From: a virus
IMG/VR virus record: IMGVR_UViG_3300009428_000009
Coordinates: 1 to 58,295 of that record
Direction: 5' to 3' (one strand)
Length of the DNA stretch: 58,295 nucleotides
The number at the start of each line of letters is the position of its first letter. The stretch's first letter is position 1. This document shows, one piece after another, positions 37,354-57,318 of this stretch. The position numbers and the translations under genes are program-made. The notes under the pieces are model-generated. The model did not search any database, was not told the origin of the DNA, and was given only the letters and a program-made list of their open reading frames with translations.

Positions 37354-37616
37354 AAACTTTTAAAGCATATATTAGTGAAGGTAGAGACTATAAAAAAGAA
37401 CGCGAAAACTATCTTGGTACTCCTGAGCAGATGAAAAGAAATGCAGCTAGAAAAAGAGCAAGACGCGCCGCTGTTCGGTCTGGAATGGCAGAGGATGGAG
37501 ATGGTCGTGACATCCATCACAAAGATAATAATCCTCTCAACAATGACTTGAAAAATCTAGCGTCAGTCACAGTAAGATATAATCGTAGAGAACCGAGACT
37601 CAGGAATAGAAAATGA
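37350..37616 (+). CDS. Small HNH-motif protein with capsid-targeting tag
   Basis: The 88 residues hold a single HNH-like motif 'RDIHHKDNNPLNNDLKNL' (His56, His57, Asn residues), preceded by a strongly basic helix 'RNAARKRARRAAVRS'. The N terminus 'MKTFKAYISE-G' is the island tag. As I recall, untagged marine relatives begin at about 'GRDYKKE', exactly where the gp21-type cut after Glu10 would leave the mature protein here. A DNA-binding or nicking protein that enters with the genome is possible. The basic helix may also help pack it on DNA. Start and stop both overlap neighbours (ATGA). Confidence 0.8.
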   Translation: MKTFKAYISEGRDYKKERENYLGTPEQMKRNAARKRARRAAVRSGMAEDGDGRDIHHKDNNPLNNDLKNLASVTVRYNRREPRLRNRK

Positions 37617-38569
37617 AAACATTCTATCAATATATGCAATTAGAGGAAGTTTTTAGTCAGGCAAGCTTGTCCAATCATCTCTTTAATATGCCTCTTTTCG
37701 GCGGCAAAGATGGTGATATAATGTCATTTAAAATACCTATGGGTAATGCAAACATAAAAAGAGTGATGCCAACTGAAATTAGAGGCTCTGTTTTTCATGT
37801 CACTAGCGAAAGTAATCACGATAAACTTGTTAAAGGACAAAACAAAAAATCTGGACTGTCCGCATTTAGAAATATGAAACCAAGTAGTATGGATAGAGGT
37901 ATTGCGTCTGGCGGTGGTTTTATCTATGAATTAGATGCTAATCTTTTAGGTTCATTCGAAACGGATGTGCGTTCAGGCGTAGATAAGACTGGTAGAAGAT
38001 GGGTAACATTGCAATCATTATTAGACACTGGATTCCATAACACTTCTGATTTCCCACATATCAACGATTTACATAGACCACTTGAGAAAAACGACTTGGG
38101 TAGTTTACCCAAAGATATAGAAACATATGTGAGAAAAGTATTAGGCAATTTAGATGGACATACAAAAAGAGGCTTACGCCCTGATTGGGTAGATGTACCA
38201 AGACACTTAGAAGATAAACATGGTTCGCCTGACTCAGCTGGCGCAAAAAAAGAGATGGGCAATATTATCAAGGGTTATATTGATACAGTCAACAAATCTT
38301 ATATGAAAAATTCAAAGAAAATAGCGACTGCACTAAAAAAACAATATGTTGATAAGTTGGACAAGGCTGCCTGGGACGAAATGATTGTCAATCAGTATAA
38401 AGTTAAAAAACTACATGTACTACTCTCCGCACCACAATTTGTAAATGGATTATGGTCAGATGTTACAGATGCAATGGAAGATGCTAAAAGTAGAGGTATA
38501 GAGGTTGTTGAGTGGGATAATTCTAGAGATTTACAGTCCCATATATTAGCAACAAGGATTAAAAGTTAA
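37613..38569 (+). CDS. Internal virion protein candidate A (possible ART-like fold)
   Basis: The 318-residue protein is a paralogue of the one at 39028. Shared blocks are 'KGQNKKSGLSAFRNM', 'RGIAS', 'IYELDANLLGSF', 'GRRW', 'IIKGYI' and 'WDEMIVNQYK'. An 'H-x-T' segment ('VFHVTSE', His62), followed about ten residues later by K-x-G-x-N and then Ser-Ala-Phe, recalls the NAD-binding strand of ADP-ribosyltransferases of the PARP/DarT type. This likeness is weak and needs a structure search. The N terminus 'MKTFYQYMQLEE-V' is a variant of the island tag. T4 packages the ADP-ribosyltransferase Alt in the same way, which makes an Alt-like role attractive (inference). Confidence 0.6.
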   Translation: MKTFYQYMQLEEVFSQASLSNHLFNMPLFGGKDGDIMSFKIPMGNANIKRVMPTEIRGSVFHVTSESNHDKLVKGQNKKSGLSAFRNMKPSSMDRGIASGGGFIYELDANLLGSFETDVRSGVDKTGRRWVTLQSLLDTGFHNTSDFPHINDLHRPLEKNDLGSLPKDIETYVRKVLGNLDGHTKRGLRPDWVDVPRHLEDKHGSPDSAGAKKEMGNIIKGYIDTVNKSYMKNSKKIATALKKQYVDKLDKAAWDEMIVNQYKVKKLHVLLSAPQFVNGLWSDVTDAMEDAKSRGIEVVEWDNSRDLQSHILATRIKS

Positions 38570-39027: not shown

Positions 39028-39969
39028 ATGCAAAATTTTAAGTCTTATTTATTAGAATTGCATGGTAAAAGTAGTTTATCTCAAAAGCTATTTGATATCA
39101 AAAAAAGCGATAATGAAGGCATTGCAAATTTTTGGATGCCTATGTCCTCAGCACAAATGAAACAGATCACTCCTACTCCTCCAAGAATAACTTGCTGGCA
39201 TATTGCAGCTCAACAGTTTCATAAAACGATGTTTAAAGGTGAGAACAAAAAGCGCGGCATTTCCGCATTTTTGAATATGTCCTCTACGAGTCTTGCTAGA
39301 GGTGTCGCCACTAGTGGTGCTCAAGTTATCTATGAATTGGAAGCTGATTTGTTAGGATCGTTCTCCGGTGATATTGGATCAGAACCCGACAATTCGGGCA
39401 GGCGTTGGTATGAAATGTATGAATTGGCTCGCTCTGATACATACACTGATAAATTTGAAAATACCAAGGTCGATCTAAAGGATTTGGGAACTATGCCTGC
39501 TGATATGGAAAAATATGTTATAAGTGCTATTGAAAGAGTTTGGGGTAAAAAACCTAATAATAAAGGCGAAAGTCTAACCATGTATTGGCAACTTCTGCCT
39601 GCAGAATTAAAGCAAAAAAATAGAAGCGGAGAACTTTCTGATATTATCAAAGGTTATATTGAAGCCGCAACAAAAACATATAAGAAGAATGCTAAAGCAC
39701 TTGCCAAAAAGATACAAAGTCATTATAATGAAGATCGGATGCCAGCTGGACAATGGGACGAGGTAATTGTTAATAATTATAAAATAAGACAAGTACATAT
39801 GACCCATGAAATAAGAAATGATATGCGCTCTGGTGTTCAATTTGAATGGGACAAAGCTGAGGATTGGATTGAAAATAAACTCGGCAAAGAGATTGAGATG
39901 CACGACAGAAATCAAGATTTGGCAATAGAGATTTCTAGAATAAACGCTAATATGCGAATAAAATTTTAA
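39028..39969 (+). CDS. Internal virion protein candidate B (paralogue of candidate A)
   Basis: The 313-residue protein shares with the one at 37613 the blocks 'GENKKRGISAFLNM', 'RGVAT', 'IYELEADLLGSF', 'GRRW', 'DIIKGYI' and 'WDEVIVNNYK', with the His of 'CWHIAAQ' (His58) in place of 'VFHVTSE'. Its N terminus 'MQNFKSYLLE-L' fits the island tag. The pair are diverged outside these blocks, so they may differ in target. A weak ADP-ribosyltransferase-like pattern is the only functional hint. It is the last gene of the tagged island; a strong sigma70 promoter begins 7 nt after its stop. Confidence 0.6.
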   Translation: MQNFKSYLLELHGKSSLSQKLFDIKKSDNEGIANFWMPMSSAQMKQITPTPPRITCWHIAAQQFHKTMFKGENKKRGISAFLNMSSTSLARGVATSGAQVIYELEADLLGSFSGDIGSEPDNSGRRWYEMYELARSDTYTDKFENTKVDLKDLGTMPADMEKYVISAIERVWGKKPNNKGESLTMYWQLLPAELKQKNRSGELSDIIKGYIEAATKTYKKNAKALAKKIQSHYNEDRMPAGQWDEVIVNNYKIRQVHMTHEIRNDMRSGVQFEWDKAEDWIENKLGKEIEMHDRNQDLAIEISRINANMRIKF

Positions 39970-41661: not shown

Positions 41662-44160
41662 TTGGCAGCTTTTTATACGAATGTAGCGCGATACGGCAAC
41701 TCACTCTTATACCGTGGTTATAACGACCACGGTGTGAGAATTGAAAAGCGTGTCAAATTTAAACCCACGTTGTTTGTGCGTAGTAAAACCCAGACAGATT
41801 GGAAATCACTTGACGGCGTTTCTCTACAACCAGTAGATTTTGAATCTATGCGTGATGCTAAAGAATGGCTAGAAACGTATAAAGATATGGATAATGTCAA
41901 AATTTACGGCAACACAAATTACATTCAACAGTTTATTGTATCTGAATTTCCTAAAGATATTCAATTCAATCGTAAACATGTGAATGTTGCAAATCTAGAT
42001 ATCGAAGTTGCGTCAGACGATGGTTTTCCAGAACCAGAAACTGCTAATTATCCTGTAATTTCGATCTGTCTGAAAAGTTCCACAAGCGAAATATATCACG
42101 TTTGGGGTCTTGGTGACTTTGATGCTGATAAGCGTGAAAATCAAGACATAATGGTTCAATACCGCAAATGTAGTAGTGAGACTGAATTACTCGCAAAATT
42201 TATGACATACTGGACAAAGAATACGCCAGACGTTATTACAGGTTGGTACATCAAAAACTTTGATATGCCGTACTTGATTAATCGTGTTGCTAAGTTAGCT
42301 GGCACAGAAGTCTCTAACAAATTCTCACCTTGGGGTCTTGTTAGCGAGAGAAATGTTACTGTCCAAGGTCGCGTTATGAAAAGCTACGAAATTACTGGCA
42401 TATCACAACTTGATTATATTGAATTGTTTAAAAAGTTTGGTTATTCTTACGGCAATCAAGCATCATACAAGTTAGATCATATTGCTAATGTTGTTCTTGG
42501 CGAAAAGAAATTGTCATATGAAGAACACGGCAATCTGCATACTCTTTATAAAAACGACCATCAACTATTCATTGATTATAACATTAAAGACGTTTGGCTA
42601 GTTGGTAAAATTGACGAAAAAATGGATTTGATTACTCTTGCGTTGACCATGGCGTACCGCGGTGGCGTGAATTATGATACGACTATGGGTACTACTGCCA
42701 TATGGGACTCTATTATCCATCGTGATTTGAATAAGAAAAATATCATTATCTCGCCTAAAGATGATAAGCACAAAACTCCTTATCCCGGCGGCTATGTAAA
42801 AGATCCACACGTTGGTGCCCATGAGTGGGTTGTTTCTTTTGATTTGAACTCACTATATCCAAGTCTAATTGTGCAATATAATATGTCACCTGAAACGCTA
42901 GTTGTTGATCCTGATGAGCGTCACCAATCTGGCGTAGAACACTATATGCACAATGCACCTAACGTCAACAAAGATTTATCTATAGCAGCCAACGGCGTGA
43001 CATTTAGTAAAGAAAAACAAGGTATTCTGCCTAAGATTATTTCCGATTATATGTTAGAGCGAAAAGCGACTAAAAAAGCAATGTTGTCAGCAATGCAGAA
43101 ACACGCAGACAATCCATCAGATGCACTTTCAAGAGAAATCAATCAACTTGAAAATCGTCAGATGGCAATTAAAATTCTACTCAATTCATTATATGGCGCA
43201 ATCGGCAATCAACATTTTCGTTACTTCGACCAGCGGATTGCCGAAGGTATCACACTCTCAGGTCAGTTATCCATTCAATGGGCTGAACGCTGCATTAATG
43301 ATGAAATGAATAAGATTTTAAAAACTGATAACACAGATTATGTTATTGCGATGGATACAGATTCACTCTATATTAACTTCGGACCATTCATCAAAAAATT
43401 AGCACCTAAAGATCCAGTAAAAGCACTTGATAAGATTTGTGCAGAGCATTTTGAAGCTGTACTTCAGAAAGGCTATGATGATCTTTTTCGACAGATGAAC
43501 GCATATACAAATCGTATGATTATGGAACGCGAAGCTATTGCAGACCGTGGTTTATGGATGGCAAAAAAGCGTTATATCTTGAATGTGCATAATAACGAAG
43601 GTGTTCAATATAAAGAACCGAAACTAAAAATCATGGGTATTGAAGCTGTAAAATCGTCAACTCCTCAAGTTGTCCGTGATAAATTTCTGCAAGTTTTTAA
43701 GATTATCATATCTGGTTCAGAAATGGATACACGAAAATTTATCAACGATTTTAAGACAGAGTTTAAATCACTGCCGCCCGAAGCAGTATCTTTTCCTCGT
43801 GGTTGTAGCGAAGTGAAAAAATATGCAGATCGTAAAACGATCTTTAAGAAAGGTACACCAATTCACGTTCGTGGCGCACTATTGTATAACAATCAAATAA
43901 AAGATAAAGCGTTAGATAAAAAATACTCTCCTATTCAAAACGGCGAAAAAGTTTTATTCAGCTATCTAAAGATGCCTAATCCAATTCGACAAAATGTTAT
44001 ATCTTTTCCAGACTATATTCCGCCGGAAATGAATTTAGCTAGATACGTTGATTATGAAACACAATTTTCTAAAACCTTTCTTGATCCTATCACACCAATT
44101 CTAGATGCTGTTGGTTGGTCTGTTGAAGAAAAAGCTACCCTAGAAGATTTTTTTGGTTGA
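41662..44160 (+). CDS. 43: DNA polymerase gp43 (family B)
   Basis: Replicative polymerase with proofreading exonuclease. Exonuclease motifs are 'VANLDIEVAS' (D-x-E), 'NFDMPYLINR' (second Asp) and 'YNIKDVWLV' (YxxxD-like). Polymerase motif A is 'SFDLNSLYPSLI', motif B 'KILLNSLYGAIGN' and motif C 'AMDTDSLYI'. A C-terminal 'TLEDFFG' corresponds to the T4 clamp-binding tail 'SLDFLFG'. The 832 residues are slightly shorter than T4 (898). The start is TTG, with 'GGAG' eight nt upstream; a nearby ATG is out of frame. Its stop lies in the -35 of the next promoter. Confidence 0.97.
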   Translation: MAAFYTNVARYGNSLLYRGYNDHGVRIEKRVKFKPTLFVRSKTQTDWKSLDGVSLQPVDFESMRDAKEWLETYKDMDNVKIYGNTNYIQQFIVSEFPKDIQFNRKHVNVANLDIEVASDDGFPEPETANYPVISICLKSSTSEIYHVWGLGDFDADKRENQDIMVQYRKCSSETELLAKFMTYWTKNTPDVITGWYIKNFDMPYLINRVAKLAGTEVSNKFSPWGLVSERNVTVQGRVMKSYEITGISQLDYIELFKKFGYSYGNQASYKLDHIANVVLGEKKLSYEEHGNLHTLYKNDHQLFIDYNIKDVWLVGKIDEKMDLITLALTMAYRGGVNYDTTMGTTAIWDSIIHRDLNKKNIIISPKDDKHKTPYPGGYVKDPHVGAHEWVVSFDLNSLYPSLIVQYNMSPETLVVDPDERHQSGVEHYMHNAPNVNKDLSIAANGVTFSKEKQGILPKIISDYMLERKATKKAMLSAMQKHADNPSDALSREINQLENRQMAIKILLNSLYGAIGNQHFRYFDQRIAEGITLSGQLSIQWAERCINDEMNKILKTDNTDYVIAMDTDSLYINFGPFIKKLAPKDPVKALDKICAEHFEAVLQKGYDDLFRQMNAYTNRMIMEREAIADRGLWMAKKRYILNVHNNEGVQYKEPKLKIMGIEAVKSSTPQVVRDKFLQVFKIIISGSEMDTRKFINDFKTEFKSLPPEAVSFPRGCSEVKKYADRKTIFKKGTPIHVRGALLYNNQIKDKALDKKYSPIQNGEKVLFSYLKMPNPIRQNVISFPDYIPPEMNLARYVDYETQFSKTFLDPITPILDAVGWSVEEKATLEDFFG

Positions 44161-44227: not shown

Positions 44228-46051
44228 ATGGCGTTCCCGTTCGAAAATAAAGATCCCGTTTACGAAACTATGGCGCTCTTGCGCGATTATCAGAAAGAGT
44301 TTATTTCTGATCCCATCTTAAATGAGATTCGTCAACCATCATCAGATATGATGAATGTGGTTTCTGCAGGCACAGGATCTGGAAAAACTCACACTATAGT
44401 ACATAACATAATTCCTACAATATTCAAAGAAGATTTAGCAGACATTGTAATTTTTACTTGTCCTAACGATGCATCTTTAGAAGATATAGAATCGCTAGTT
44501 AGAGCGTGGCTACCTGAAAGTGGAAATCAGGATGATTTGGCATTAGTTTATATGAAAGACGCCTTTGGCAATTCATCTGTTAATATGCGAACTTTTAGTG
44601 GACCAACTATCGTAGTCGCACATCCTACAGCGATATCACAAAATTCTGAACTTTTTCAAAAATTAGGCAAAAAATATCGCATTGTTGGAATTAGCGATGA
44701 AGCTCATATCGGTTTACAATCACGCGGCGCCGAAGAATATATGATTGCGTATGGTTATCCTTCTTATGTCACATCTGAAGATGATGCCGCCTGGCTTAAC
44801 ACATTTTTAGAAATGGGTGCCAACACTTGGTTTTTAATAACAGCTACTCCTAGAAATACTGTAAAAAATTCTTCTTGGATGAAACTGTTATCTGTATGCC
44901 CTAAAGAAAAAACTTTAGAGTTTCATAGCTGTAATCGCGGCGTTAACTTTTACCCTGTTGCAGAATATAGTGAGCTTATAGAAGAATTGGTAGCAGAGCA
45001 GGAAGCAGAATATCAAGAAATGAAAGATATCCATGCAAAATATGGATTGGAAATTGCAAAAGCAATTATTGGAATTCAAGGCATGGCAAAAGGTAGTTTT
45101 GCATCATCCCATGAAATTTACGATAGTTTCCCTGCTCGGGATTACCACGGCAAAGTTGCAATTGTAGTTTCAAAAAGAAAAGCAATAAAAGGACTTTCTA
45201 AAAACCAAATCAACCGGCAATACGGTTCTGGCGGTAGTCAACCAAAAGCTGCAGAATTGTTTGATGGATTATCAGATAAAACAAAAGATGTTTATATTGT
45301 TATTGCTACTAAACATCTGGATAATGCAGTAAATATTCCTAGCATGAATCTTCTAATATCTACAAATATTAGAGCAGCTAGTAATGATTTATCTGTAACA
45401 TCTAGTGTCGAGCAATTCATGGGTCGTGCAAATAGATTTCCTAAAGTCAAAGGTATTTCTAATATGCGTGAAGCTGTTGCAGCTAAGTTGAAAGCTATTA
45501 AAGACGGAGTTCCCAAAGAAATTGCAGAACGCTGGTTTGAAGTTACTTTTGGTTACACAATCTTTTTGCCTGATACACCGCAAAATCGCGCCGGTGCAGA
45601 CGCATTTTTTAAAAACCAGACATTAAGTGTAGATGATTGGAAAGACTATCTAAATACATTAGAAAGCGATATTCTAATCAACGGTTCTTCTGAAAATGTA
45701 TTGAATGTTACTGACGATAAAGAGCAAAGCACACGAAACTGGGGCGGACTTAAATCACCTTGGGCGCAGCCGGGCGATCTGAGTTATAAAAATCAAAAAG
45801 GTTGTTTATGTGAAAAATGTCCAAGAGACGAAAATGGCGTGCCTCAATGCGCTGCAACATTTCATGCTCTTGGTTACACAGAGGAAGAATATTTTGAATC
45901 TTTAGATGTAAATCACAAAAATGGAGATCACACTGATAACCGTCCTGAAAATCTTGAAACTTTATGTGCTAACATGCACCGAGCAATAACTAAGCGAGAA
46001 AAACACGCCACAAATCTTCAGTATCGAAACAACATTGTCAATATCTCTTGA
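44228..46051 (+). CDS. SF2 helicase fused to a C-terminal HNH nuclease
   Basis: A 607-residue two-domain protein. The helicase part has the Q-like 'LRDYQKEFISDP', Walker A 'SAGTGSGKTH' (47-55), DEAH box 'GISDEAHIG' (155-162), motif III 'LITATPRN' (203-210) and motif VI 'SVEQFMGRANRF'. The C-terminal ~85 residues carry a zinc Cys pair 'CLCEKCP' (526-532) and a classic HNH core 'DVNHKNGDHTDNRPENLETL' (from 560). This fusion is not a standard T4 gene and recalls restriction or defence enzymes more than UvsW or gp41. Possible roles are degradation of competing DNA, or fork processing. It has its own promoter and stands between polymerase and MazG genes. Confidence 0.88.
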   Translation: MAFPFENKDPVYETMALLRDYQKEFISDPILNEIRQPSSDMMNVVSAGTGSGKTHTIVHNIIPTIFKEDLADIVIFTCPNDASLEDIESLVRAWLPESGNQDDLALVYMKDAFGNSSVNMRTFSGPTIVVAHPTAISQNSELFQKLGKKYRIVGISDEAHIGLQSRGAEEYMIAYGYPSYVTSEDDAAWLNTFLEMGANTWFLITATPRNTVKNSSWMKLLSVCPKEKTLEFHSCNRGVNFYPVAEYSELIEELVAEQEAEYQEMKDIHAKYGLEIAKAIIGIQGMAKGSFASSHEIYDSFPARDYHGKVAIVVSKRKAIKGLSKNQINRQYGSGGSQPKAAELFDGLSDKTKDVYIVIATKHLDNAVNIPSMNLLISTNIRAASNDLSVTSSVEQFMGRANRFPKVKGISNMREAVAAKLKAIKDGVPKEIAERWFEVTFGYTIFLPDTPQNRAGADAFFKNQTLSVDDWKDYLNTLESDILINGSSENVLNVTDDKEQSTRNWGGLKSPWAQPGDLSYKNQKGCLCEKCPRDENGVPQCAATFHALGYTEEEYFESLDVNHKNGDHTDNRPENLETLCANMHRAITKREKHATNLQYRNNIVNIS

Positions 46052-46429: not shown

Positions 46430-47365
46430 GTGTATAGTCTTACTATATTTAAAAATCTGTATGACAACAAAACCCATCGTAAGATGAATTTCTTGCGGTG
46501 GGAGGACTATACTAAATTTCTATATGATTTATCTAAAATTCCAAGAAAAGGAAAGCATGATGCACAACTTATATCTCCTGCTAGTTACGTTTCTGATACA
46601 ACTAGGGCAAACGCGAATGTTTTGGATTGGTCAAGTTGGGCTGCTGTTGATGTTGATGATCATGTCTTTAAAGGAAAATTAGAAAGTGAACTTTTTGACC
46701 GTTTTGGCGAGTTTAATTATATTTGCTATTCTACGGCAAGTAGTTCACTTGAACACCCAAAGTTTAGACTTGTGTTCCCACTTACGGCATCGATTGATGC
46801 ATCTAAAATCAAACACTTCTGGTTTGCACTCAATAAAGAACTCGGAGAAATCGGAGATGGTCAGACTAAAGACTTATCTAGAATGTATTACATCCCTGCG
46901 AATTATGATAATTCTAATAACTTTATATTCAGCAATACTTCTGGCTCTGATATGGATGCAAATCGTATAATATCAAAATACCCTTATAAAGAAAAAACTG
47001 GTTCTTCTTTCATAGACAGACTACCTAAAGATACTATAGATAAAGTAATACAATATAGAAAAGATCAGCAGAAAAATACTGATATACGTTGGACTGGTTA
47101 TAGAGATTGTCCGTTCGTTAATAAAAATCACATTAAAGAATGGTTTGCTATATCTGGTACTGACAACTCAGGTCGTTATGCTATGATATATAAGATTATG
47201 GTATCTACTGCAATGAACGCAATTAAGCGAGAGTATCCTATAAGTGCATATGAGGTCGAGCAACTTGTCAGAGAATTAGACGATGAGACTTCACAGAAAT
47301 ATGAAAAAAGACCTCTTGGAGTTGAAGCCGATAGAGCAATAGAGTATGCTTATAGAAATATATAA
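46430..47365 (+). CDS. Primase-polymerase-like protein (archaeo-eukaryotic primase fold, atypical)
   Basis: The 311-residue protein has a pattern resembling the AEP primase superfamily of phages and plasmids: 'WAAVDVDDHVF' (Asp74, Asp76 as the D-x-D pair), then 'YICYSTASSSLEHPKFRLVF' (the S-T-H-S strand and R-L-V-x-P-L block) and 'LSRMYYIPANYD'. The usual His of 'YSTHS' is Ala here, so catalysis may be altered. A C-terminal helical region ends 'DRAIEYAYRNI'. The start is GTG with 'AAGGAAG' upstream, immediately after mazG. It could be the primase of this phage, since gp61 is not in the window. Confidence 0.6.
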   Translation: MYSLTIFKNLYDNKTHRKMNFLRWEDYTKFLYDLSKIPRKGKHDAQLISPASYVSDTTRANANVLDWSSWAAVDVDDHVFKGKLESELFDRFGEFNYICYSTASSSLEHPKFRLVFPLTASIDASKIKHFWFALNKELGEIGDGQTKDLSRMYYIPANYDNSNNFIFSNTSGSDMDANRIISKYPYKEKTGSSFIDRLPKDTIDKVIQYRKDQQKNTDIRWTGYRDCPFVNKNHIKEWFAISGTDNSGRYAMIYKIMVSTAMNAIKREYPISAYEVEQLVRELDDETSQKYEKRPLGVEADRAIEYAYRNI

Positions 47366-49015: not shown

Positions 49016-49358
49016 ATATATGACTAATAAAGACTATGTGGTAGTAACTACAGTATCATCTTTCCGTCATCGCTATGTGATGCATAAAGATGACCTACGT
49101 AAACTAAATTCTGATGTAGAGCCGAATGACGCCGAACTTGATGATTGGGCGTCAGATACGGTCATTTGTGAAGAATGTGATGAGTTTTCTCAATATCACA
49201 TAGGCGAACAGGGATGTGATGTTTATCAATGTTCCGAGGAAGAAATGCTTACCTTATTTGATAGAGACAACGATTATCTCAGTAATTGGGAGCAAGATCA
49301 AAAAATTAAATGGGTGCTAGATAAATTACACAAGCCCAAGATAGGAACTTACAAATGA
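48996..49358 (+). CDS. Hypothetical protein with Cys-rich centre (120 aa)
   Basis: The chosen ATG starts 'MKTYGIRYMTNKDYVVVTTV', followed by 'SSFRHRYVMHKDDLRKLN', a motif seen in marine phage proteins. 'VICEECDEFSQYHIGEQGCD' contains a C-x2-C pair and a later Cys, suggesting a small metal site. It overlaps the 3' end of the preceding gene by 20 nt. The alternative start is ATG at 49020. The function is unknown. The stop overlaps the aldolase start. Confidence 0.68.
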   Translation: MKTYGIRYMTNKDYVVVTTVSSFRHRYVMHKDDLRKLNSDVEPNDAELDDWASDTVICEECDEFSQYHIGEQGCDVYQCSEEEMLTLFDRDNDYLSNWEQDQKIKWVLDKLHKPKIGTYK

Positions 49359-50182
49359 GTAAATTTATTGCAGCAATGGACCACAGTGGTGGATCAACAG
49401 GTGGAGTTTTAGAACGCTACGGACAAGAATATACTGAAGATGATAAAATGGAAAAAGTCCATGCAATGCGTATGCGTATGGTAAATAGTCCTAAATTTAC
49501 TTCAGAAAATATAAAAGGAGCAATTCTATACAAAGACACTTTAGATAGAGGTATGGCTCCGATTTTACACGCTAAACAGATACCAATTTATTTGAAAGTC
49601 GATAGCGGGTGTAATCCAGATGGAACTCTTAAAGAGTTTGATATAGATGAGATGATTCAGTTTGCGACTTCGCATGGCTGTACTGGCACAAAAATGCGAA
49701 GTATTGTCCATAGTGTTGATATGATAGCGCCCGTATTAAATCAACAGTTTAAACTTGCTAAAGAAATCGCTGAAGGATTTCTTATGCCAATTATTGAACC
49801 AGAAGTTCCTATCGATTCTCCAGATAAAGCAGAAATTGAATGGAAAATGCATGTTCAACTTAGAAATAAGTTAGATAAATTTCTTTCTAATAAAAATACT
49901 TTGGGTTTGACACGATTGTTTACGATGCTAAAGCTAACTCCACCAGAGTCTGATAATCTTTATTATGAATTGACCAAGCATTATAATATAGACAGTATTG
50001 TTGCATTGAGTGGAGGTTATTCTACAAATGAGGCATGTGAGCGTCTTTCAAAACAGAGGAACATATCTGCAAGCTTCAGCCGTGCCTTAAGTGAAGGACT
50101 ATTCCTTAGTCAGTCGGAAGAAGAATTTAATAATCGTATAAATCAGAATATAGACCAAATTTGTAGAGCGAGTGGAGGATAA
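49355..50182 (+). CDS. Fructose-bisphosphate aldolase, class I (bacterial FdaB type)
   Basis: Cytosolic Schiff-base aldolase: fructose 1,6-bisphosphate to or from dihydroxyacetone phosphate plus glyceraldehyde 3-phosphate. It aligns by eye along its length with the bacterial class I type: 'FIAAMDHSGGSTGGVLERYG', 'KGAILYKDTLDRG', 'IYLKVDSG', 'GTKMRS' (Lys113), 'PIIEPEV', 'MLKLTPPE' (Schiff-base Lys193), 'IVALSGGYST' and 'ASFSRALSEGL'. The 275 residues are slightly shorter than cellular homologues (about 295). All key motifs are intact. It heads a close-packed set with cupin, PEP carboxykinase, phosphomannomutase and nucleotidyltransferase, pointing to gluconeogenic use. Confidence 0.93.
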   Translation: MSKFIAAMDHSGGSTGGVLERYGQEYTEDDKMEKVHAMRMRMVNSPKFTSENIKGAILYKDTLDRGMAPILHAKQIPIYLKVDSGCNPDGTLKEFDIDEMIQFATSHGCTGTKMRSIVHSVDMIAPVLNQQFKLAKEIAEGFLMPIIEPEVPIDSPDKAEIEWKMHVQLRNKLDKFLSNKNTLGLTRLFTMLKLTPPESDNLYYELTKHYNIDSIVALSGGYSTNEACERLSKQRNISASFSRALSEGLFLSQSEEEFNNRINQNIDQICRASGG

Positions 50183-50186
50183 AAAT

Positions 50187-50534
50187 ATGACTATTGCAGG
50201 AAAAGTATGGGGCCAAACAGAATTGATTGAAGCAAATGGTGCATTAGAATTTCATCGTATTGAAATGGAAGGCGGCGGTGTCTGTTCAAAACATCTACAT
50301 GAGTATAAATGGAATGGCTTTTACATTGAGTCGGGAATTATGCTTGTTCGCGTCTGGCAAAATGATTATGATTTGATTGATGAAACTATTTTGAACGCTG
50401 GTGAATATACTAAAGTGAAACCCGGTGTGTATCACCAATTTGAGTGTATTGAGCCAGGCGTGGCATTTGAATTATACTGGGCAGAATTTAACCATAATGA
50501 TATTGTAAGAGAAACGATCGGATATAAGGAATAG
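50187..50534 (+). CDS. Cupin-domain protein
   Basis: Single small beta-barrel of the cupin type (115 residues). Motif 1 is 'CSKHLHEYKWNGFYIESG', with His-x-His and Glu, and motif 2 is 'AGEYTKVKPGVYHQFECIEP', with Pro-Gly and His. The layout is like the cupin part of mannose-6-phosphate isomerases and related sugar-binding cupins, but the substrate cannot be read from sequence. The ATG at 50187 follows 'GGAGG'; a GTG 15 nt upstream would place the ribosome site in the coding region. It lies between aldolase and PEP carboxykinase, so a hexose-phosphate isomerase role is a working guess. Confidence 0.75.
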   Translation: MTIAGKVWGQTELIEANGALEFHRIEMEGGGVCSKHLHEYKWNGFYIESGIMLVRVWQNDYDLIDETILNAGEYTKVKPGVYHQFECIEPGVAFELYWAEFNHNDIVRETIGYKE

Positions 50535-50537
50535 CTG

Positions 50538-51851
50538 ATGGCAAACATTAGTATCACGACAGAGCCGACAGGTAGAAGTCCAGAAAACAAATACTTCTTT
50601 GGGACAGCTACAAACGAATTATGTACTAAAAGACCAAAATATTGCAAAGTTGGTGATCCTAACGAATATAATCAATTCGCGTCAAGAATGAAATCTGAAA
50701 ATTCTACGACCAAACGTAATTTTCCTTTGTGTTTCGAGACTGCAGGTATTCGTTTCGAGGTCCATACTAATGACGAGCGCCACGAACAGTTTGTTAGGAA
50801 TATGTTTACTGTTTTGCCCCGGGGCTTTGGTCACTGGGTACCAGATTGGACAATATTACACAATACTGAAATATCAGTTCCTCATCCTAGAATTTTTGTC
50901 CACTTAGACAAAAAAGAAATGCTTATTGCAGGTACTACATTTTTGGGCGAAATTAAGAAGGGCGTATTTGGAATTGTTAGTTTTGAAATTCCAAAGCATG
51001 GCATATTGCCTATGCATTGTAGTGCGTTCACATATAACGATACAACTAATTTGATGTTTGGTTTGAGCGGCACAGGTAAAACAACATTAAGTAGTGATCC
51101 TGATTTTCGTCTAATTGGTGACGATGAAATCACTTGGGACTATTATGGTATAGAAATGATCGAAACTGGCTGCTATGCTAAAAGTGAAGGACTTTCGGAA
51201 GAAACACATAAGACAATTTATGATGCAGTAGCTCTTGCAGAGAGTCGAGAGAATCTAGTAATCGAAAACCCAGGAGTGCCTAACGCAAGACTTAGCTATC
51301 CACTAGATTGTGTTGAGAACGCCCATAGTCCAAAAGATGAGCTAGATCATCCGACTAATATTTTCTTCCTAACATTTGATGCAGAAGGTATTTTACCTGC
51401 TATTAGCAAAATCAAAGGCGACACAGTAAAATTGCTTTTCGAAACAGGATATACAAGTGTTATGCCTGGAACAGAACGCGGTGTTCGCGAAATAACAAAA
51501 ACATTTTCGCCTTGCTATGGTTCGCCGTTTATGCCGAGACCAGTTAAAGAATACAGTGAATTGCTAATGCAAAAAATCAATTCAAATGATTGCAATGTAT
51601 ATCTTGTCAACACTGGAATGAATAGTGCTGGAGAAAGATTTGATCTAAAACTTACAAGGGAAAGCATAAAGACTGCTATTGACGATAAACTAGACACTGC
51701 ATATATTAAAGTCGATGATATTAGCTTTTGCATGATTAAGTCGTTCGGAAAATATGCGTCAAGTGAGTTGATGCCTGCACATTATCAAGGCGCGGAGTAT
51801 AAAGCAAAACTGACTAGATTGATAAATGAATTGAAAGATAACAGAATATGA
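50538..51851 (+). CDS. pckA: Phosphoenolpyruvate carboxykinase (ATP type)
   Basis: Catalyses oxaloacetate + ATP to PEP + ADP + CO2. All active-site motifs of the ATP-type enzyme are present: 'TGRSPENKYFF' (Arg13, substrate), 'GEIKKGVFG' (paired Lys), 'PMHCSA' (metal His), P-loop 'GLSGTGKTTLSSDP', kinase-2 'LIGDDEITWD', 'GCYAKSEGLS' and 'PGTERGVREIT'. 'TFSPCYGSPF' and 'YLVNTGMNSAGER' also match. The 437 residues are about 100 shorter than cellular enzymes (about 530), through a trimmed N terminus and shorter segments between TGR and the nucleotide site. It is in a tight operon with aldolase and phosphomannomutase. I know of few or no phage examples. Confidence 0.93.
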   Translation: MANISITTEPTGRSPENKYFFGTATNELCTKRPKYCKVGDPNEYNQFASRMKSENSTTKRNFPLCFETAGIRFEVHTNDERHEQFVRNMFTVLPRGFGHWVPDWTILHNTEISVPHPRIFVHLDKKEMLIAGTTFLGEIKKGVFGIVSFEIPKHGILPMHCSAFTYNDTTNLMFGLSGTGKTTLSSDPDFRLIGDDEITWDYYGIEMIETGCYAKSEGLSEETHKTIYDAVALAESRENLVIENPGVPNARLSYPLDCVENAHSPKDELDHPTNIFFLTFDAEGILPAISKIKGDTVKLLFETGYTSVMPGTERGVREITKTFSPCYGSPFMPRPVKEYSELLMQKINSNDCNVYLVNTGMNSAGERFDLKLTRESIKTAIDDKLDTAYIKVDDISFCMIKSFGKYASSELMPAHYQGAEYKAKLTRLINELKDNRI

Positions 51852-52552
51852 TACACCACATTTTCGATGTTGATGGTACACTTACTCCAAGTCGTGGTAA
51901 AATAGATGAAAAATTTAGTTCGTTCTTCTTTGACTTTTGTACATTGAATAATGTATATCTTGTTACAGGTAGTGATATTCAAAAAACGAGAGAACAAGTT
52001 GGTAATGTCATTTGGGGTATAACAAAACGCAATTATCAATGTTCTGGCAACGATGTATGGGAAAGGGGCAAAAATGTTCGCAAGGGTACAATAAAACTAC
52101 CTGATACAATGTGGGGATATCTAAATAAAGAGATAACTGAAAGTGAATTTCCTGTTAGAACAGGCATTCATATTGAAGAAAGACCCGGGCTAGTAAATTT
52201 ATCTATTGTAGGCAGAAACGCAGGTCAACGCGCTAGAACTCAATATATTCATTGGGACAATCATACGAGTGAGAGAAAGAAAATAAGTGAACGATTATCA
52301 AAACTTTTCCCAGATTTTGACTTTAAACTTGGTGGCGAAACTGGCATCGATATCACTGTTAAGGGAAATAATAAATCACAAGTATTGACAGATTTTGAAA
52401 ATTGTGATATAATAAACTTCTACGGTGATAAATGCGACTTGGGTGGTAATGACCATGAGATTGCTCTTGCAGTACATGACCGCGGCGGCAAAAATGCTAC
52501 ATATCAAGTAAAAGATTGGAAAGAGACTTGGGAAATATTAAAACAAAAATAG
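51848..52552 (+). CDS. Phosphomannomutase, HAD type IIB (eukaryotic PMM-like)
   Basis: Interconverts mannose 6- and 1-phosphate. Motif I 'IFDVDGTLTPSRGKI' holds Asp7 and Asp9, motif II is 'LVTGSDIQKTREQVG', and the cap domain follows. 'QCSGNDVWERGK', 'VNLSIVGRNAGQRARTQY' and 'NFYGDKCDLGGNDHEIAL' match the PMM1/PMM2 family (N-x-S-P-x-G-R-N and F-G-D-x-x-x-x-G-G-N-D). The 234 residues are near the 240-260 usual size. The ATG overlaps the stop of PEP carboxykinase. It supplies mannose 1-phosphate for sugar-nucleotide synthesis. Trehalose or sucrose phosphatases of the same class are less likely. Confidence 0.88.
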   Translation: MIHHIFDVDGTLTPSRGKIDEKFSSFFFDFCTLNNVYLVTGSDIQKTREQVGNVIWGITKRNYQCSGNDVWERGKNVRKGTIKLPDTMWGYLNKEITESEFPVRTGIHIEERPGLVNLSIVGRNAGQRARTQYIHWDNHTSERKKISERLSKLFPDFDFKLGGETGIDITVKGNNKSQVLTDFENCDIINFYGDKCDLGGNDHEIALAVHDRGGKNATYQVKDWKETWEILKQK

Positions 52553-52959
52553 GAATTACGGCTTCAACTTTTGACCTATTACATGCAGGTCATATTGCAA
52601 TGCTTCGGGAAGCTAAGACAAAATGCAATCATCTGATCTGTGCATTGCAAGTCGATCCATCTGTGGACAGACCTAACAAGAATAAGCCCATACAAACTTT
52701 AGTTGAGCGTCACACACAACTATCTGGAGTAAAATATGTCGATGAAATTATTCCATATCAAACTGAGCAAGATTTAGAAGATATTTTGAGTATGTTTCCT
52801 ATTGACGTAAGAATAATTGGCGAAGAATATAAAAGCACTACATTCACTGGTCGTCAAATTTGCGCGGAACGCGGCATAGAAATATTTTATAATAAACGAG
52901 ACCACAGATTTTCATCTAGTGATTTGAGAAAAAGGGTACATGATGGGAAAAAGAAGTGA
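52528..52959 (+). CDS. Cytidylyltransferase-like nucleotidyltransferase
   Basis: Rossmann-like enzyme of the TagD/RfaE type that transfers a nucleotide to a sugar or polyol phosphate. It has 'GITASTFDLLHAGHIAMLRE' with the H-x-G-H motif, 'VERHTQLSGVKYVDEIIPY', 'DVRIIGEEYKS' and the closing 'RFSSSDLRKRV' (S-x-S-x-L-R). Only TTG starts are available (52528 or 52516), both inside the phosphomannomutase gene, so translation is coupled. Size (about 143 residues) matches single-domain enzymes. It may activate the product of the neighbouring mutase or glycerol phosphate; the exact substrate cannot be told. Confidence 0.83.
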   Translation: MGNIKTKIGITASTFDLLHAGHIAMLREAKTKCNHLICALQVDPSVDRPNKNKPIQTLVERHTQLSGVKYVDEIIPYQTEQDLEDILSMFPIDVRIIGEEYKSTTFTGRQICAERGIEIFYNKRDHRFSSSDLRKRVHDGKKK

Positions 52960-53473
52960 CTTTGAAAGAGTAGAAAGAGATTTTTATCCTACACCTGAGG
53001 CGGCAGTCTTGCCACTTTTGCCACACTTGCCTGAGAGTTATTTTACTTTTATAGAGCCTTGCGCTGGTGATGGTAGACTTACAAAACATTTGCATTTTAA
53101 TATGGATTGTAAATCGTTATCAAATACAGATATAGAACCTAGAGTTGATTGGGTAAAACAAAAAGATGCATTTGATATATTGATTGATGATAATGTAGAT
53201 TATGTAATAACTAACCCACCTTGGAATAGAAAATTTCTACATCCATTTATAGAGTATTTTGCGCCAAAGCGTCCAACTTGGTTGCTATTCGATGCTGATT
53301 GGATGCATACAAAGCAGAGCGAACCTTATATGAAAATGTGTTCTAAGATTGTAAGTATAGGTAGGGTCAAGTGGATAGAAGGAAGTAAGAGTGTTGGTAA
53401 AGACAATTGTTGCTGGTATCTATTTCAAGAAAAAGCACAAAGAACACAATTTTATGGTAGACAATCATTATAG
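52940..53473 (+). CDS. DNA N6-adenine methyltransferase-like protein
   Basis: SAM-dependent methyltransferase of the phage Dam-like type. It starts 'DFERVERDFYPTPEAAV' (the D-x-Y-P-T-P entry), has the SAM loop 'FIEPCAGDGRLTKHL' and the catalytic 'VITNPPWNRKF' (N-P-P-W). The 177 residues form a minimal catalytic domain without target-recognition domain. It overlaps the nucleotidyltransferase by 20 nt. It probably methylates phage DNA for protection, alongside possible glycosylation. The C-terminal part contains the -35 of the uvsX promoter. Confidence 0.85.
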   Translation: MMGKRSDFERVERDFYPTPEAAVLPLLPHLPESYFTFIEPCAGDGRLTKHLHFNMDCKSLSNTDIEPRVDWVKQKDAFDILIDDNVDYVITNPPWNRKFLHPFIEYFAPKRPTWLLFDADWMHTKQSEPYMKMCSKIVSIGRVKWIEGSKSVGKDNCCWYLFQEKAQRTQFYGRQSL

Positions 53474-53511: not shown

Positions 53512-54561
53512 ATGTCGGTAATGGACAAACTCAAAAAGAACTCAAAACTAAAGAATACTGAAGTTCTTTCGGAGTCTAAATTTTTTAATAATAAAGAGAA
53601 AGTTTCAACATCTGTACCTATGATCAATGTTGCACTTTCTGGATCAGTAGATGGTGGTCTTACTCCCGGACTGACGGTACTTGCTGGACCATCTAAACAT
53701 TTTAAAACTTCATTCACGCTGCTAATCGCTGCAGCGTATCTAAACAAGTATCCTGATGCTATCATGCTATTCTATGATTCAGAATTTGGCTCACCAGCTT
53801 CTTATTTTGAGCAATTCGATATTGACACGACTCGCGTTCTGCATACACCAATTACCAATGTCGAAGAATTGAAATTTGATCTCATCGGTCAGTTAGAAGG
53901 TCTAGACCGCAAAGATCGTGTTATAGTTGTCATTGACTCTATCGGCAATCTTGCATCTAAGAAAGAAATGGAAGACGCAATCAACGAAAAATCTGTGGCT
54001 GATATGTCACGGGCAAAAGCACTCAAGGGTCTATTCAGAATGTGTACGCCATATCTTGCTATGAAAGATATTCCTATGATTGCAGTCAATCACACATACA
54101 AAGAAATTGGTTTGTTTCCTAAAGATATTGTATCAGGTGGCACAGGCATTTATTACAGCGCAAATAATATTTGGATCTTGGGACGCCGTCAAAACAAGAA
54201 AGGTACTGAGATTCAAGGCTATGACTTTGTTATCAATGTTGAAAAATCTCGGTTCGTCAAAGAAAAATCTAAGATACCAATCAGTGTAACGTGGGAAGGT
54301 GGAGTAGCTGCTTGGTCTGGACTATTAGAGGTCGCACTTGCTGGAGGCTATGTTGTTAAGCCGAGTAATGGCTGGTATAGTTCTGTCGATATGTCAACGG
54401 GTGAAGTATCAGAAAAGAAAGTACGCGAAGCAGGCACACTGGAAGAAGATTTCTGGAAACCTATTTTTGATACTACAGATTTTGCAGAATTTATCAAAAA
54501 ACAGTATACTATTGGTCACCAGACAGAAGTAGATTTTGATGATTTGTTAGAAGGAGAATAA
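53512..54561 (+). CDS. uvsX: Recombinase UvsX (RecA-like)
   Basis: Forms filaments on ssDNA for strand exchange in recombination-dependent replication. It matches T4 UvsX: 'ESKFFNNKEKVSTSVPMINV', 'VLAGPSKHFKTSF' (Walker A, G-P-S-K-x-x-K-T-x), 'FYDSEFGSPASYF', 'VVIDSIGNLASKKE' (Walker B), 'DMSRAKALKGLFRM', 'NHTYKEIG', 'GGTGIYYSANN' and 'VEKSRFVKEKSKIPI', ending in an acidic tail 'DFDDLLEGE'. The 349 residues are slightly shorter than T4 (391), mainly in the acidic tail. 'AGGAGAATTAT' precedes the ATG. Confidence 0.97.
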   Translation: MSVMDKLKKNSKLKNTEVLSESKFFNNKEKVSTSVPMINVALSGSVDGGLTPGLTVLAGPSKHFKTSFTLLIAAAYLNKYPDAIMLFYDSEFGSPASYFEQFDIDTTRVLHTPITNVEELKFDLIGQLEGLDRKDRVIVVIDSIGNLASKKEMEDAINEKSVADMSRAKALKGLFRMCTPYLAMKDIPMIAVNHTYKEIGLFPKDIVSGGTGIYYSANNIWILGRRQNKKGTEIQGYDFVINVEKSRFVKEKSKIPISVTWEGGVAAWSGLLEVALAGGYVVKPSNGWYSSVDMSTGEVSEKKVREAGTLEEDFWKPIFDTTDFAEFIKKQYTIGHQTEVDFDDLLEGE

Positions 54562-54924: not shown

Positions 54925-55875
54925 ATGACTAACCCAGACTATCCAGTTTACATCATATCTAAGGGTCGATCTGATTCGATGGTAACATCCAGATCACTCG
55001 CCCGTATGAAAATCCCACATTATATTGCAATTGAACCTCAAGACGAGGACGATTATAAAAAATCACTAGATGTATTTGCAATTAGGGACTATGTTACATT
55101 ATTGATTGCTCCGTTCTCAAATCACGGTGACGGACCCGGTCGCGCTAGAAACTGGTGCTGGGATCATTCAATGACTTTAGGTTTTGAACGTCATTGGGTA
55201 CTAGATGATAATATATCTGACTTTTACAGATTACACGAAAACAAACGTATTAGAGTCGAGACTGGTGCAATATTTAAAGCAGCGGAAGAATTTACAGATA
55301 GATACACTAACGTCCCTATCTCTGGTTTTCAGTATCGTTTCTTTATTGCGCCAAATCAAAAGTATCCCGCTTTTGTTAAAAACACAAGAATTTATTCATG
55401 CTTATTAATTGCAAATGATTGCAAGCATAGATGGCGCGGAAGATATAATGAAGATACTGATATTTGCTTGCGAGTACTGAAAGACGGTGACTGTACTATT
55501 CAATTCAATGCTTTCATGCAAGGCAAGTTAGCTACACAAACACTAAAGGGTGGCAATACGGCAGAATTTTATCATGTTGAAAATACAGATCAGAAAAGTA
55601 TCGTGACAGGTAAAGATTTGAATGATACTGGCTATAATAGCTTAGGCACTGCTAATAAATCTCAAATGCTAGTTGATATGCATCCAGACGTTGCTAGAAT
55701 AGCTTGGAGATATGGTCGCTGGCATCACTATGTAGACTACTCTCCTTTTAAAAAGAATATGTTAAAATTTAGAGAAAACTATGTGCCCATGAGCGGCAAT
55801 AACGAATACGGTCTTAAACTTGTGAGTGATGAAAAATATAAACTCCGAAACTATAAAGGAAAGAAGGATGTGTGA
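54925..55875 (+). CDS. GREB1/TAGT-like DNA glycosyltransferase candidate
   Basis: The 316-residue protein is of the GT-A-like family linked to TET/JBP base-modification systems in phages (GREB1 C-terminal type). The signature is 'PVYIISKGRSDSMVTSRSLA', then 'YIAIEPQDEDDYK', 'GPGRARNWCWDHSMTLGFER' and the metal site 'HWVLDDNISDFYRLHENKR', then 'RGRYNEDTDICLRVLKDGDC' with the second acidic motif (E-D-T-D). Known or proposed relatives attach sugars to hydroxymethylated bases. No TET or hydroxymethylase gene is in this window. The 3' end overlaps the next small gene. Confidence 0.78.
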   Translation: MTNPDYPVYIISKGRSDSMVTSRSLARMKIPHYIAIEPQDEDDYKKSLDVFAIRDYVTLLIAPFSNHGDGPGRARNWCWDHSMTLGFERHWVLDDNISDFYRLHENKRIRVETGAIFKAAEEFTDRYTNVPISGFQYRFFIAPNQKYPAFVKNTRIYSCLLIANDCKHRWRGRYNEDTDICLRVLKDGDCTIQFNAFMQGKLATQTLKGGNTAEFYHVENTDQKSIVTGKDLNDTGYNSLGTANKSQMLVDMHPDVARIAWRYGRWHHYVDYSPFKKNMLKFRENYVPMSGNNEYGLKLVSDEKYKLRNYKGKKDV

Positions 55876-56146: not shown

Positions 56147-56471
56147 TAAAAAAGTAGAAGAATCTGGACAATATGATAATTTTATGGATCATATGGGCGA
56201 AACAATAGCAGGCACTGCCTCACTTGCAGATTTTGTCGATATTGAGGATAATCGTGACAACTGGGAAAAACACTGGGTTGGTATGCCCACTTATACTCAG
56301 GAACATAATAAGACATATAAAACTGTTATGATGCATTTTCGTAATGCTGAAGATTATAAAGAATATTGTGATTTGATTGGTCAAGCCATGACTATGAAAA
56401 CGAAAAGTGCATGGTATCCCGCATTAGACCGTGAAGCAAATAGTCTACTACGTTGGATAGAAGATGATTGA
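56136..56471 (+). CDS. Conserved protein related to ParB-associated domains (111 aa)
   Basis: Contains 'NWEKHWVGMPTYTQEHNKTY', then 'TVMMHFRNAEDYKEYCDLIG' and 'AMTMKTKSAWYP'. The pattern W-x-G-M-P-x-[FY]-x-Q, H/R-F-x-x-x-E-D, and T-x-K-T-K-S-x-W-[YF]-P recurs in phage and plasmid proteins, often fused to ParB-like nuclease domains; here it stands alone. It lies between the two glycosyltransferases of the modification region and overlaps both neighbours. Confidence 0.7.
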   Translation: MSDDKKVEESGQYDNFMDHMGETIAGTASLADFVDIEDNRDNWEKHWVGMPTYTQEHNKTYKTVMMHFRNAEDYKEYCDLIGQAMTMKTKSAWYPALDREANSLLRWIEDD

Positions 56472-57318
56472 AAAGATTTATATACCTACTGTTAAACGAG
56501 TAGATAATCAAATAACTTATAATTGTCTCTCAGATTCTTTAAAAAAACGTGTTGTTTTTGTAGTACAAGCTTGGGAAAGAGAACAATACAAATATGATAC
56601 AGAATATCTAGTTTTACCAGATTGGCTAACATATAAGCATCCACACGCTATCGCAGAAACTAGGAATATAATATATCAACACGCTAAAACTAGCAAATAT
56701 ATGATGGCAGACGATGATATGGTTATTGTCAGAAGAAATCAAAAATATTTTGGATTACCGTCTAATATGGAAAAAGCAAAACGAATAGCCACTCTAGATG
56801 ATGTGGATTATCTTTTTGCAAACGCATCAAAAATCTTAACTGATAATAATGATGCTTGTTACTTAGGAGTTTCTTCGGAAGCTTTTGCTCCTCCACCACA
56901 AGCTATTACAAAACTTCAGGCTATTTATCAAATTTGGTTTATAGACGGAAACAAATTATATGATACATTTTGCGACAATAAAAAATTATTGTCAAGCACA
57001 ATGCATACTTCGGACGATACTCTTTTTAACATAGTCATGGCTACAAATGGCAAAGCTGGTTGGAAAATGAACGATTTTTGCGCTAAAAACAAAAGTGTCG
57101 ATAAAAAAGCAAATATTGGTTCTGTTCTATGGGATAATAATAAAGACGATCAATCCCGACAAGATCAGCGTCTTTTAGCTGAAATGTATCCAAAATATTA
57201 TAAGATAAAAGACGATGCTGCACTGGCATATAGAGGGTTAGTACTAAAGGCTAGGTTCGAATATAAAAAAGCTTATGTCGATGCACACGCCTCGAAATTA
57301 GACGATTTTCTATCTTGA
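56464..57318 (+). CDS. Glycosyltransferase-like protein with clamp-motif tail
   Basis: The 284-residue protein has a GT-A-like N-terminal pattern: 'IYIPTVKRVDNQITYNCLSD' (I-P-x-x-x-R), 'VFVVQAWEREQYK', 'KHPHAIAETRNIIYQHA' (x-G/A-I-x-x-T-R) and metal site 'YMMADDDMVIVRRN' (D-D-D). This is similar to phage proteins grouped with TET/JBP-associated transferases. The C terminus 'SKLDDFLS' closely resembles the gp55 tail 'SDLKDFLE' and gp43 'TLEDFFG', so clamp binding is predicted. T4 alpha-glucosyltransferase has been reported to bind gp45. The substrate is unknown. The stop lies in the gp41 promoter -35. Confidence 0.7.
   Translation: MIEKIYIPTVKRVDNQITYNCLSDSLKKRVVFVVQAWEREQYKYDTEYLVLPDWLTYKHPHAIAETRNIIYQHAKTSKYMMADDDMVIVRRNQKYFGLPSNMEKAKRIATLDDVDYLFANASKILTDNNDACYLGVSSEAFAPPPQAITKLQAIYQIWFIDGNKLYDTFCDNKKLLSSTMHTSDDTLFNIVMATNGKAGWKMNDFCAKNKSVDKKANIGSVLWDNNKDDQSRQDQRLLAEMYPKYYKIKDDAALAYRGLVLKARFEYKKAYVDAHASKLDDFLS

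Follow-up and report, generated by a model that had tools for sequence, protein, structure and literature searches.

A probable gluconeogenic gene module in marine T4-like phages, with a possible sugar branch in one clade

In which direction, and towards which product, would carbon flow through a block of five genes, among them those of a PEP carboxykinase (PCK), an aldolase and a phosphomannomutase, carried by a marine T4-like phage? The question is raised by IMGVR_UViG_3300009428_000009, a linear viral record of 58,295 bases that was analysed over its whole length and is called here the window; it is a fragment and may lack further pathway genes. Phage family matches for the gp43 polymerase, UvsX, a DnaB-like helicase, a primase-like protein, terminase and tail sheath placed the window among T4-like myoviruses, and the gp43 gene that anchors this identity (41662..44160, + strand; phrog_262, 1032 bits) has Phage C48C1, of the Kyanoviridae, as its nearest isolate (58%). 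The five ORFs (49355-52959), which overlap or nearly abut as the initial annotation had described, are all on the + strand and all above their Pfam cut-offs. They lie between a DNA primase-like gene (46430..47365, +; phrog_9765, syntenic in contig L004) and the T4-like core gene of the UvsX recombinase (53512..54561, +; phrog_97, 306 bits), and a DNA methyltransferase-like gene (52940..53473, +; phrog_799) flanks this interval, with a different MTase at the matching position in L002 and L004. Cargo genes gather in the primase-UvsX interval, a hot spot where L004 has metK, L016 has purM, and Phage C48C1 has a nucleotide-sugar epimerase with a UDP-glucose dehydrogenase; in window relatives, metK and purM were found inserted adjoining pck (L004:10024-11112; L003:4961-5827). 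Elsewhere in the window, the polymerase is immediately followed by a helicase-like protein (44228-46051) that matches an HNH endonuclease at its C terminus and is absent from that place in L004, and two adjacent paralogues without assigned function (37613-38569 and 39028-39969; 34% identity) are conserved in L004.

The first gene of the block encodes a class I (Schiff-base) FBP aldolase of FdaB-like type (49355..50182, +; 275 aa), which scored 23.9 bits against PF00274 (gathering cut-off 22.2) and matched PDB chain 2iqt_A at E=2.5e-41, while its 240 bits over the full length of the FdaB equivalog NF003784 stayed below the cut-off of 392. Both lysines highlighted by the initial annotation, Lys113 and the Schiff-base Lys193, are present together with Arg115 and are kept in 80/80 unique phage aldolases, as are all seven active-site motifs. 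It is followed by a predicted small cupin of the Cupin_2 type with no assigned substrate (50187..50534, +; PF07883 over cut-off; phrog_7851), which also stands directly after the aldolase in L004 and L016; its identification as a mannose-6-phosphate isomerase, suggested by a fusion protein in L031, was rejected for want of similarity. The fourth gene encodes a eukaryotic-type (HAD-IIB) phosphomannomutase-like enzyme, PMM (51848..52552, +; 234 aa; phrog_29277), an assignment that agreed with the initial annotation: it reached 85.5 bits against PF03332 (cut-off 22.4) and E values of about 1e-23 to 1e-21 against PMM2-type PDB entries, and the DxDGT nucleophile motif (here DVDGTLT) was found in 16/16 sequences. 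The last gene encodes a TagD/RfaE-type nucleotidyltransferase, NTase, with an HxGH motif (52516..52959, +; PF01467 over cut-off; phrog_7878, 113 bits) and 69% identity to Vibrio phage proteins. Its scores for glycerol-3-phosphate cytidylyltransferase (TIGR01518, 66 bits, cut-off 165) and heptose-1-phosphate adenylyltransferase (TIGR02199, 75 bits, cut-off 181) fell, like all others, under the equivalog cut-offs, and its substrate is therefore left open. Since these stringent NCBIfam cut-offs were missed, the aldolase, PCK and NTase are regarded as divergent homologues. All five genes are under purifying selection, with dN/dS of about 0.05-0.16.

The third gene encodes an ATP-type PCK in a shortened phage form (50538..51851, +), which scored 319 bits against PF01293 (gathering cut-off 26.5) and 284 bits against the pckA equivalog TIGR00224, below its cut-off of 590. 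The phage form has 437 aa against 540 aa; several loops and about 47 residues at the N terminus are missing from it. Residues R65, K212, K213, H232, S250, K254, D268, D269, E270 and R333 (E. coli numbers) are kept in 46/46 phage relatives, and T255, which closes the S250-T255 P-loop, is intact in the window, the exceptions among the 46 phages being one T255S and two truncated ends. The catalytic motifs listed in the initial annotation were thus largely upheld, except that the arginine of its GTERG motif is the lid residue 396, variable among relatives (A, S, K, Q, N), and not the catalytic R333, which lies within NARLS and is invariant, including in L003 and L004. Among the known active-site positions, only Tyr207 shows a fixed change, being replaced by Phe in every phage PCK; in the E. 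coli enzyme this tyrosine lines the CO2 site. An AlphaFold model (pLDDT 78.6, pTM 0.83) has the PEPCK fold, matching ATP-type PEPCKs with Z of 31-35 over 393-415 aligned residues, 1ii2 among them (Z 35.0, rmsd 2.8, 413 residues) and also 6at3, a structure in which the Y207F mutant of the E. coli enzyme binds oxaloacetate. Compared with the E. coli and Thermus ATP-PCKs, the phage enzyme shares the fold (Z 33-35) and the catalytic residues, but it is shorter, about 30% identical and carries Y207F.

In two trees, the second including 78 cellular sequences, the phage PCKs formed a single clade with 100/100 support. The phylogeny advised by the initial annotation to find the donor thus recovered a phage-only clade, but its very long stem branch was too long for a donor to be placed. 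No isolated phage of the INPHARED collection carries a member of this clade; the matches obtained there from Salmonella, Escherichia and Staphylococcus records look like bacterial sequence and were rejected as isolated-phage carriers, and the remaining one was a huge phage. A huge uncultured phage, LR756504, has its own near full-length pckA (L011:8001-9224), which is like that of the window in being a phage ATP-PCK and differs in exceeding 500 aa and nesting among Bacteroidota; it is a separate acquisition.

The search of viral databases for PckA, the aldolase and their linkage, another of the checks proposed, was carried out as a profile scan of IMG/VR, which yielded 70 PCK loci, 78 GAPDH loci and, for the aldolase, the best 80 of 268 stretches. 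After removal of near copies, 36 PCK loci remained; they are short, and the partner counts are lower bounds. At least 18 of them hold an aldolase and at least 13 a GAPDH, with either enzyme in 23, both in 8 and neither, within the stretches available, in 13. The gluconeogenic set is stronger than the initial annotation had claimed, since other phages repeatedly have a third enzyme, GAPDH, next to the PCK and the aldolase. For example, aldolase, gap, pck and a small HAD phosphatase gene abut or overlap in this order in L033, prs-gap-pck abut in L181 and L188, and pyrF, prs, HAD, gap, aldolase and pck fall inside about 13 kb in L177; L030 carries pck, HAD, pyrD, gap and aldolase, and L042 and L060 carry pyrF, prs, pck, pyrD and gap. 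L201, a close relative of the window (polymerase 85%), carries pyrD-gap upstream of its polymerase, with an aldolase following the primase, and L194, which has the same type of module, runs from pck through a kdsB-like gene, cupin, PMM, nucleotidyltransferase and UvsX to gap.

Under a crude null of one copy per 200 genes and four neighbouring slots, with clusters partly dependent, the aldolase lay at most 2 genes from pck in 7/28 PCK clusters (p about 1e-6) and near gap in 7/40 gap clusters (p about 1e-5), the HAD gene lay near the aldolase in 18/46 aldolase clusters (p 4e-19), and gap lay near pck in 3/28 PCK clusters, a weaker result (p 0.02); these statistics are indications of association only. 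No transaldolase-family gene was found in 48 records and no family member of class I FBPase, GlpX or PGK in the records tested, all of them fragments.

Four of five GAPDHs tested from relatives exceeded the cut-off of the type I family TIGR01534 (367.2 bits), and the fifth scored 366.2. The catalytic Cys motif was present in 34/34 sequences of the close group, and the NAD-selecting Asp32 was replaced in 31/34, that is, in every readable one, as it is in the PDB match 8wwz. This chain carries the name GAPDH 2, and we take it for a GapB-type enzyme, which is NADP-dependent and gluconeogenic; in B. subtilis, the NADP-type isoform is the gluconeogenic one. The GAPDH of the relatives has, by these residues, an NADP-type coenzyme site. 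Genes for GAPDH, as well as prs and pyr genes, are absent from the 58-kb window fragment, and because L201 and L194 hold gap, the window phage may carry it outside the fragment. In L211 and L214-L242, another GAPDH type was observed that is more distant (40-45%) and never stands alongside PCK or aldolase in those contigs.

The small HAD phosphatase beside the aldolase is a capless protein of about 112 aa without a Pfam match (L033:9179-9517; L030:1276-1614; L006:8927-9265), present in 39/61 non-redundant phage aldolase loci and retaining all motif I, II and IV residues. Its cyanophage relatives are annotated as phosphoheptose isomerase. By both sequence and fold, the nearest solved relative is AfhF of phage HY126 (9iqw), a D-arabinose 1,5-diphosphate phosphatase (E 6.8e-13; Z 10.3, rmsd 3.5, 97 residues), from which it differs in having only about 30% identity. 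The small HAD phosphatase, which is not encoded in the window, could be the enzyme of the missing FBPase step.

Taken together, the block probably belongs to a gluconeogenic module of auxiliary metabolism that recurs among marine T4-like phages, and forms the part of it present in the window. The module would feed PRPP and nucleotides, with an added sugar branch in the window's clade. In such a module, the phage PCK would convert oxaloacetate of the TCA cycle to PEP, and enolase, phosphoglycerate mutase and phosphoglycerate kinase of the host would lead from there to 1,3-bisphosphoglycerate; the phage GAPDH, encoded in relatives and with its NADP-type site, would then yield triose phosphate, and the class I aldolase would join trioses to FBP. 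Fructose 6-phosphate would then arise through either a host FBPase or the small HAD that relatives encode next to the aldolase. Its carbon would pass to ribose phosphate, PRPP and nucleotides, for which relatives carry prs, pyrF, pyrD and purM; a further branch in the window's clade would lead through PMM and NTase to an activated sugar. In this account the genes present, their linkage, the intact active sites, the purifying selection and the PEPCK fold are observed, while enzyme activity, direction, the HAD substrate and the endpoint are deduced. Nucleotides are the usual demand of a replicating phage (compare PMC4022391). A bolder version, which is possible rather than probable, holds that widespread uncultured marine T4-like phages carry a dedicated 'reverse glycolysis to PRPP' module, made of pck, NADP-type gap, class I aldolase, a new small HAD fructose-bisphosphatase, prs and pyrF/pyrD, turning TCA carbon of heterotrophic hosts into nucleotides.

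A flow ending in sugar nucleotides had been proposed in the initial annotation, and as a reading of the whole block it would mean that PCK and aldolase supply hexose phosphate from which cupin, PMM and NTase make an activated sugar, for a surface glycan or for DNA glycosylation by phage glycosyltransferases. PMM and NTase adjoin or lie near PCK in the window's clade, L194 has its kdsB-like gene between pck and cupin, L028 carries DegT and gmd-like genes, and the fusion in L031 joins an NTase to a mannose-6-phosphate isomerase; moreover, two glycosyltransferases of the window (54925-55875 and 56464-57318) match phrog_842 (beta-glucosyl-HMC-alpha-glucosyltransferase), which hints that DNA or the surface is glycosylated. 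However, PMM or NTase occurs in only 11/36 non-redundant PCK loci, mainly of the window's own clade, the NTase falls below every equivalog cut-off and so has no assigned substrate, and no GDP-mannose pyrophosphorylase was identified within the block. Elsewhere, the partners of PCK are prs, pyrF, pyrD, purM and metK, with prs, pyrD, pyrF or purM in at least 9/36 loci, and for this reason PRPP and nucleotides are the likelier common endpoint. The sugar ending may apply in the window's clade, and as an account of the whole module it is somewhat doubtful.

The main rival on direction is a glycolytic flow from FBP through triose to PEP, which PCK would carboxylate to oxaloacetate with a gain of ATP, the derived aspartate entering pyrimidines. 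The same genes would suffice for it, the neighbouring pyrF and pyrD require aspartate-derived carbon, and some bacterial ATP-PCKs do carboxylate PEP, such as those of Actinobacillus and Anaerobiospirillum, whose structures are among the PCK fold matches. Sequence by itself does not fix the direction, since the reactions of aldolase and GAPDH can go either way and PCK works towards oxaloacetate in some bacteria. The gluconeogenic direction is nevertheless favoured because the GAPDHs lack Asp32, as in the NADP-type isoform that is gluconeogenic in B. subtilis, because prs adjoins gap-pck in L181 and L188, pointing to pentose supply, and because Y207, a CO2-site residue of the E. coli enzyme, is Phe in every phage PCK. 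A carboxylating, glycolytic module is hence considered unlikely.

It could also be supposed that no integrated pathway exists and that the primase-UvsX interval merely collects independent metabolic genes, as its cargo of metK, purM and the sugar genes of Phage C48C1 would allow. Identical partners nevertheless recur next to PCK at other genome positions and in divergent phages, some of them abutting, which makes a chance assembly an unlikely account as well. The further supposition that the shortened PCK has lost carboxykinase activity and serves as another kinase or a regulator draws on its length of 437 aa against 540, the fixed Y207F, the long stem branch and scores far under the equivalog cut-offs; it is distinctly improbable in view of the metal, P-loop and substrate residues that are invariant in 46 phages, apart from the one T255S and the two truncated ends, and of the strong PEPCK fold match, which includes the oxaloacetate-bound Y207F mutant. 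Finally, misassembly of a host fragment, named as a risk at the outset, is so unlikely as to be negligible, since the independent contigs L002 and L004 hold the same block with core phage genes and the same junctions, the GC3 of the block falls within the range of the window's structural and replication genes, and no supporting point was found.

The probable gluconeogenic module can be compared with the carbon genes already described in phages. The cyanophage genes talC, zwf and gnd push the pentose phosphate pathway (PMC6359870), and the module resembles them in that marine T4-like phages redirect central carbon, plausibly to nucleotides; it differs in relying on the gluconeogenic steps of pck, gap and class I aldolase, with no transaldolase-family gene in the 48 records. 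In an environmental viral genome of T4-like type, an aceBA operon of the glyoxylate shunt has been interpreted as favouring gluconeogenesis (PMC5332604), and there too an uncultured T4-like phage combines gluconeogenesis-favouring genes with surface-sugar genes, but the steps are others, isocitrate lyase having been found in 0/32 records (fragments) of the window's group. Similarly, pps in deep-sea viruses was read as favouring gluconeogenesis (PMC10653327). As for the impression of the initial annotation that this carbon flow looks new, it does not hold for the single genes, since viral pckA and ALDO are reported among the auxiliary metabolic genes of trench sediments (PMC12448302) and viral fbaB is listed as not validated (PMC12713726); the passages concerned list the same enzyme names singly in viral contigs, with no linked pck-gap-aldolase module described. 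For the linkage, no prior report of a linked pck-gap-aldolase module or of a phage-only PCK clade was found in the open PMC papers searched, which is weak evidence of absence.

A PCK encoded by phages contrasts with the lysogenic repressor of lambda, which turns the host pckA down (PMC6359870). Most of the phage carbon genes known so far belong to phages that infect photosynthetic hosts, and they push the pentose phosphate route; the 'reverse glycolysis to PRPP' module, if true, would be the gluconeogenic counterpart of that cyanophage strategy. A conserved phage-only PCK clade linked to genes for GAPDH, aldolase and PRPP/pyrimidine synthesis would show how the demand for sugar phosphates is met by phages whose hosts live on organic and amino acids, and would make the carbon flow of the virocell in uncultured marine phages directly testable.
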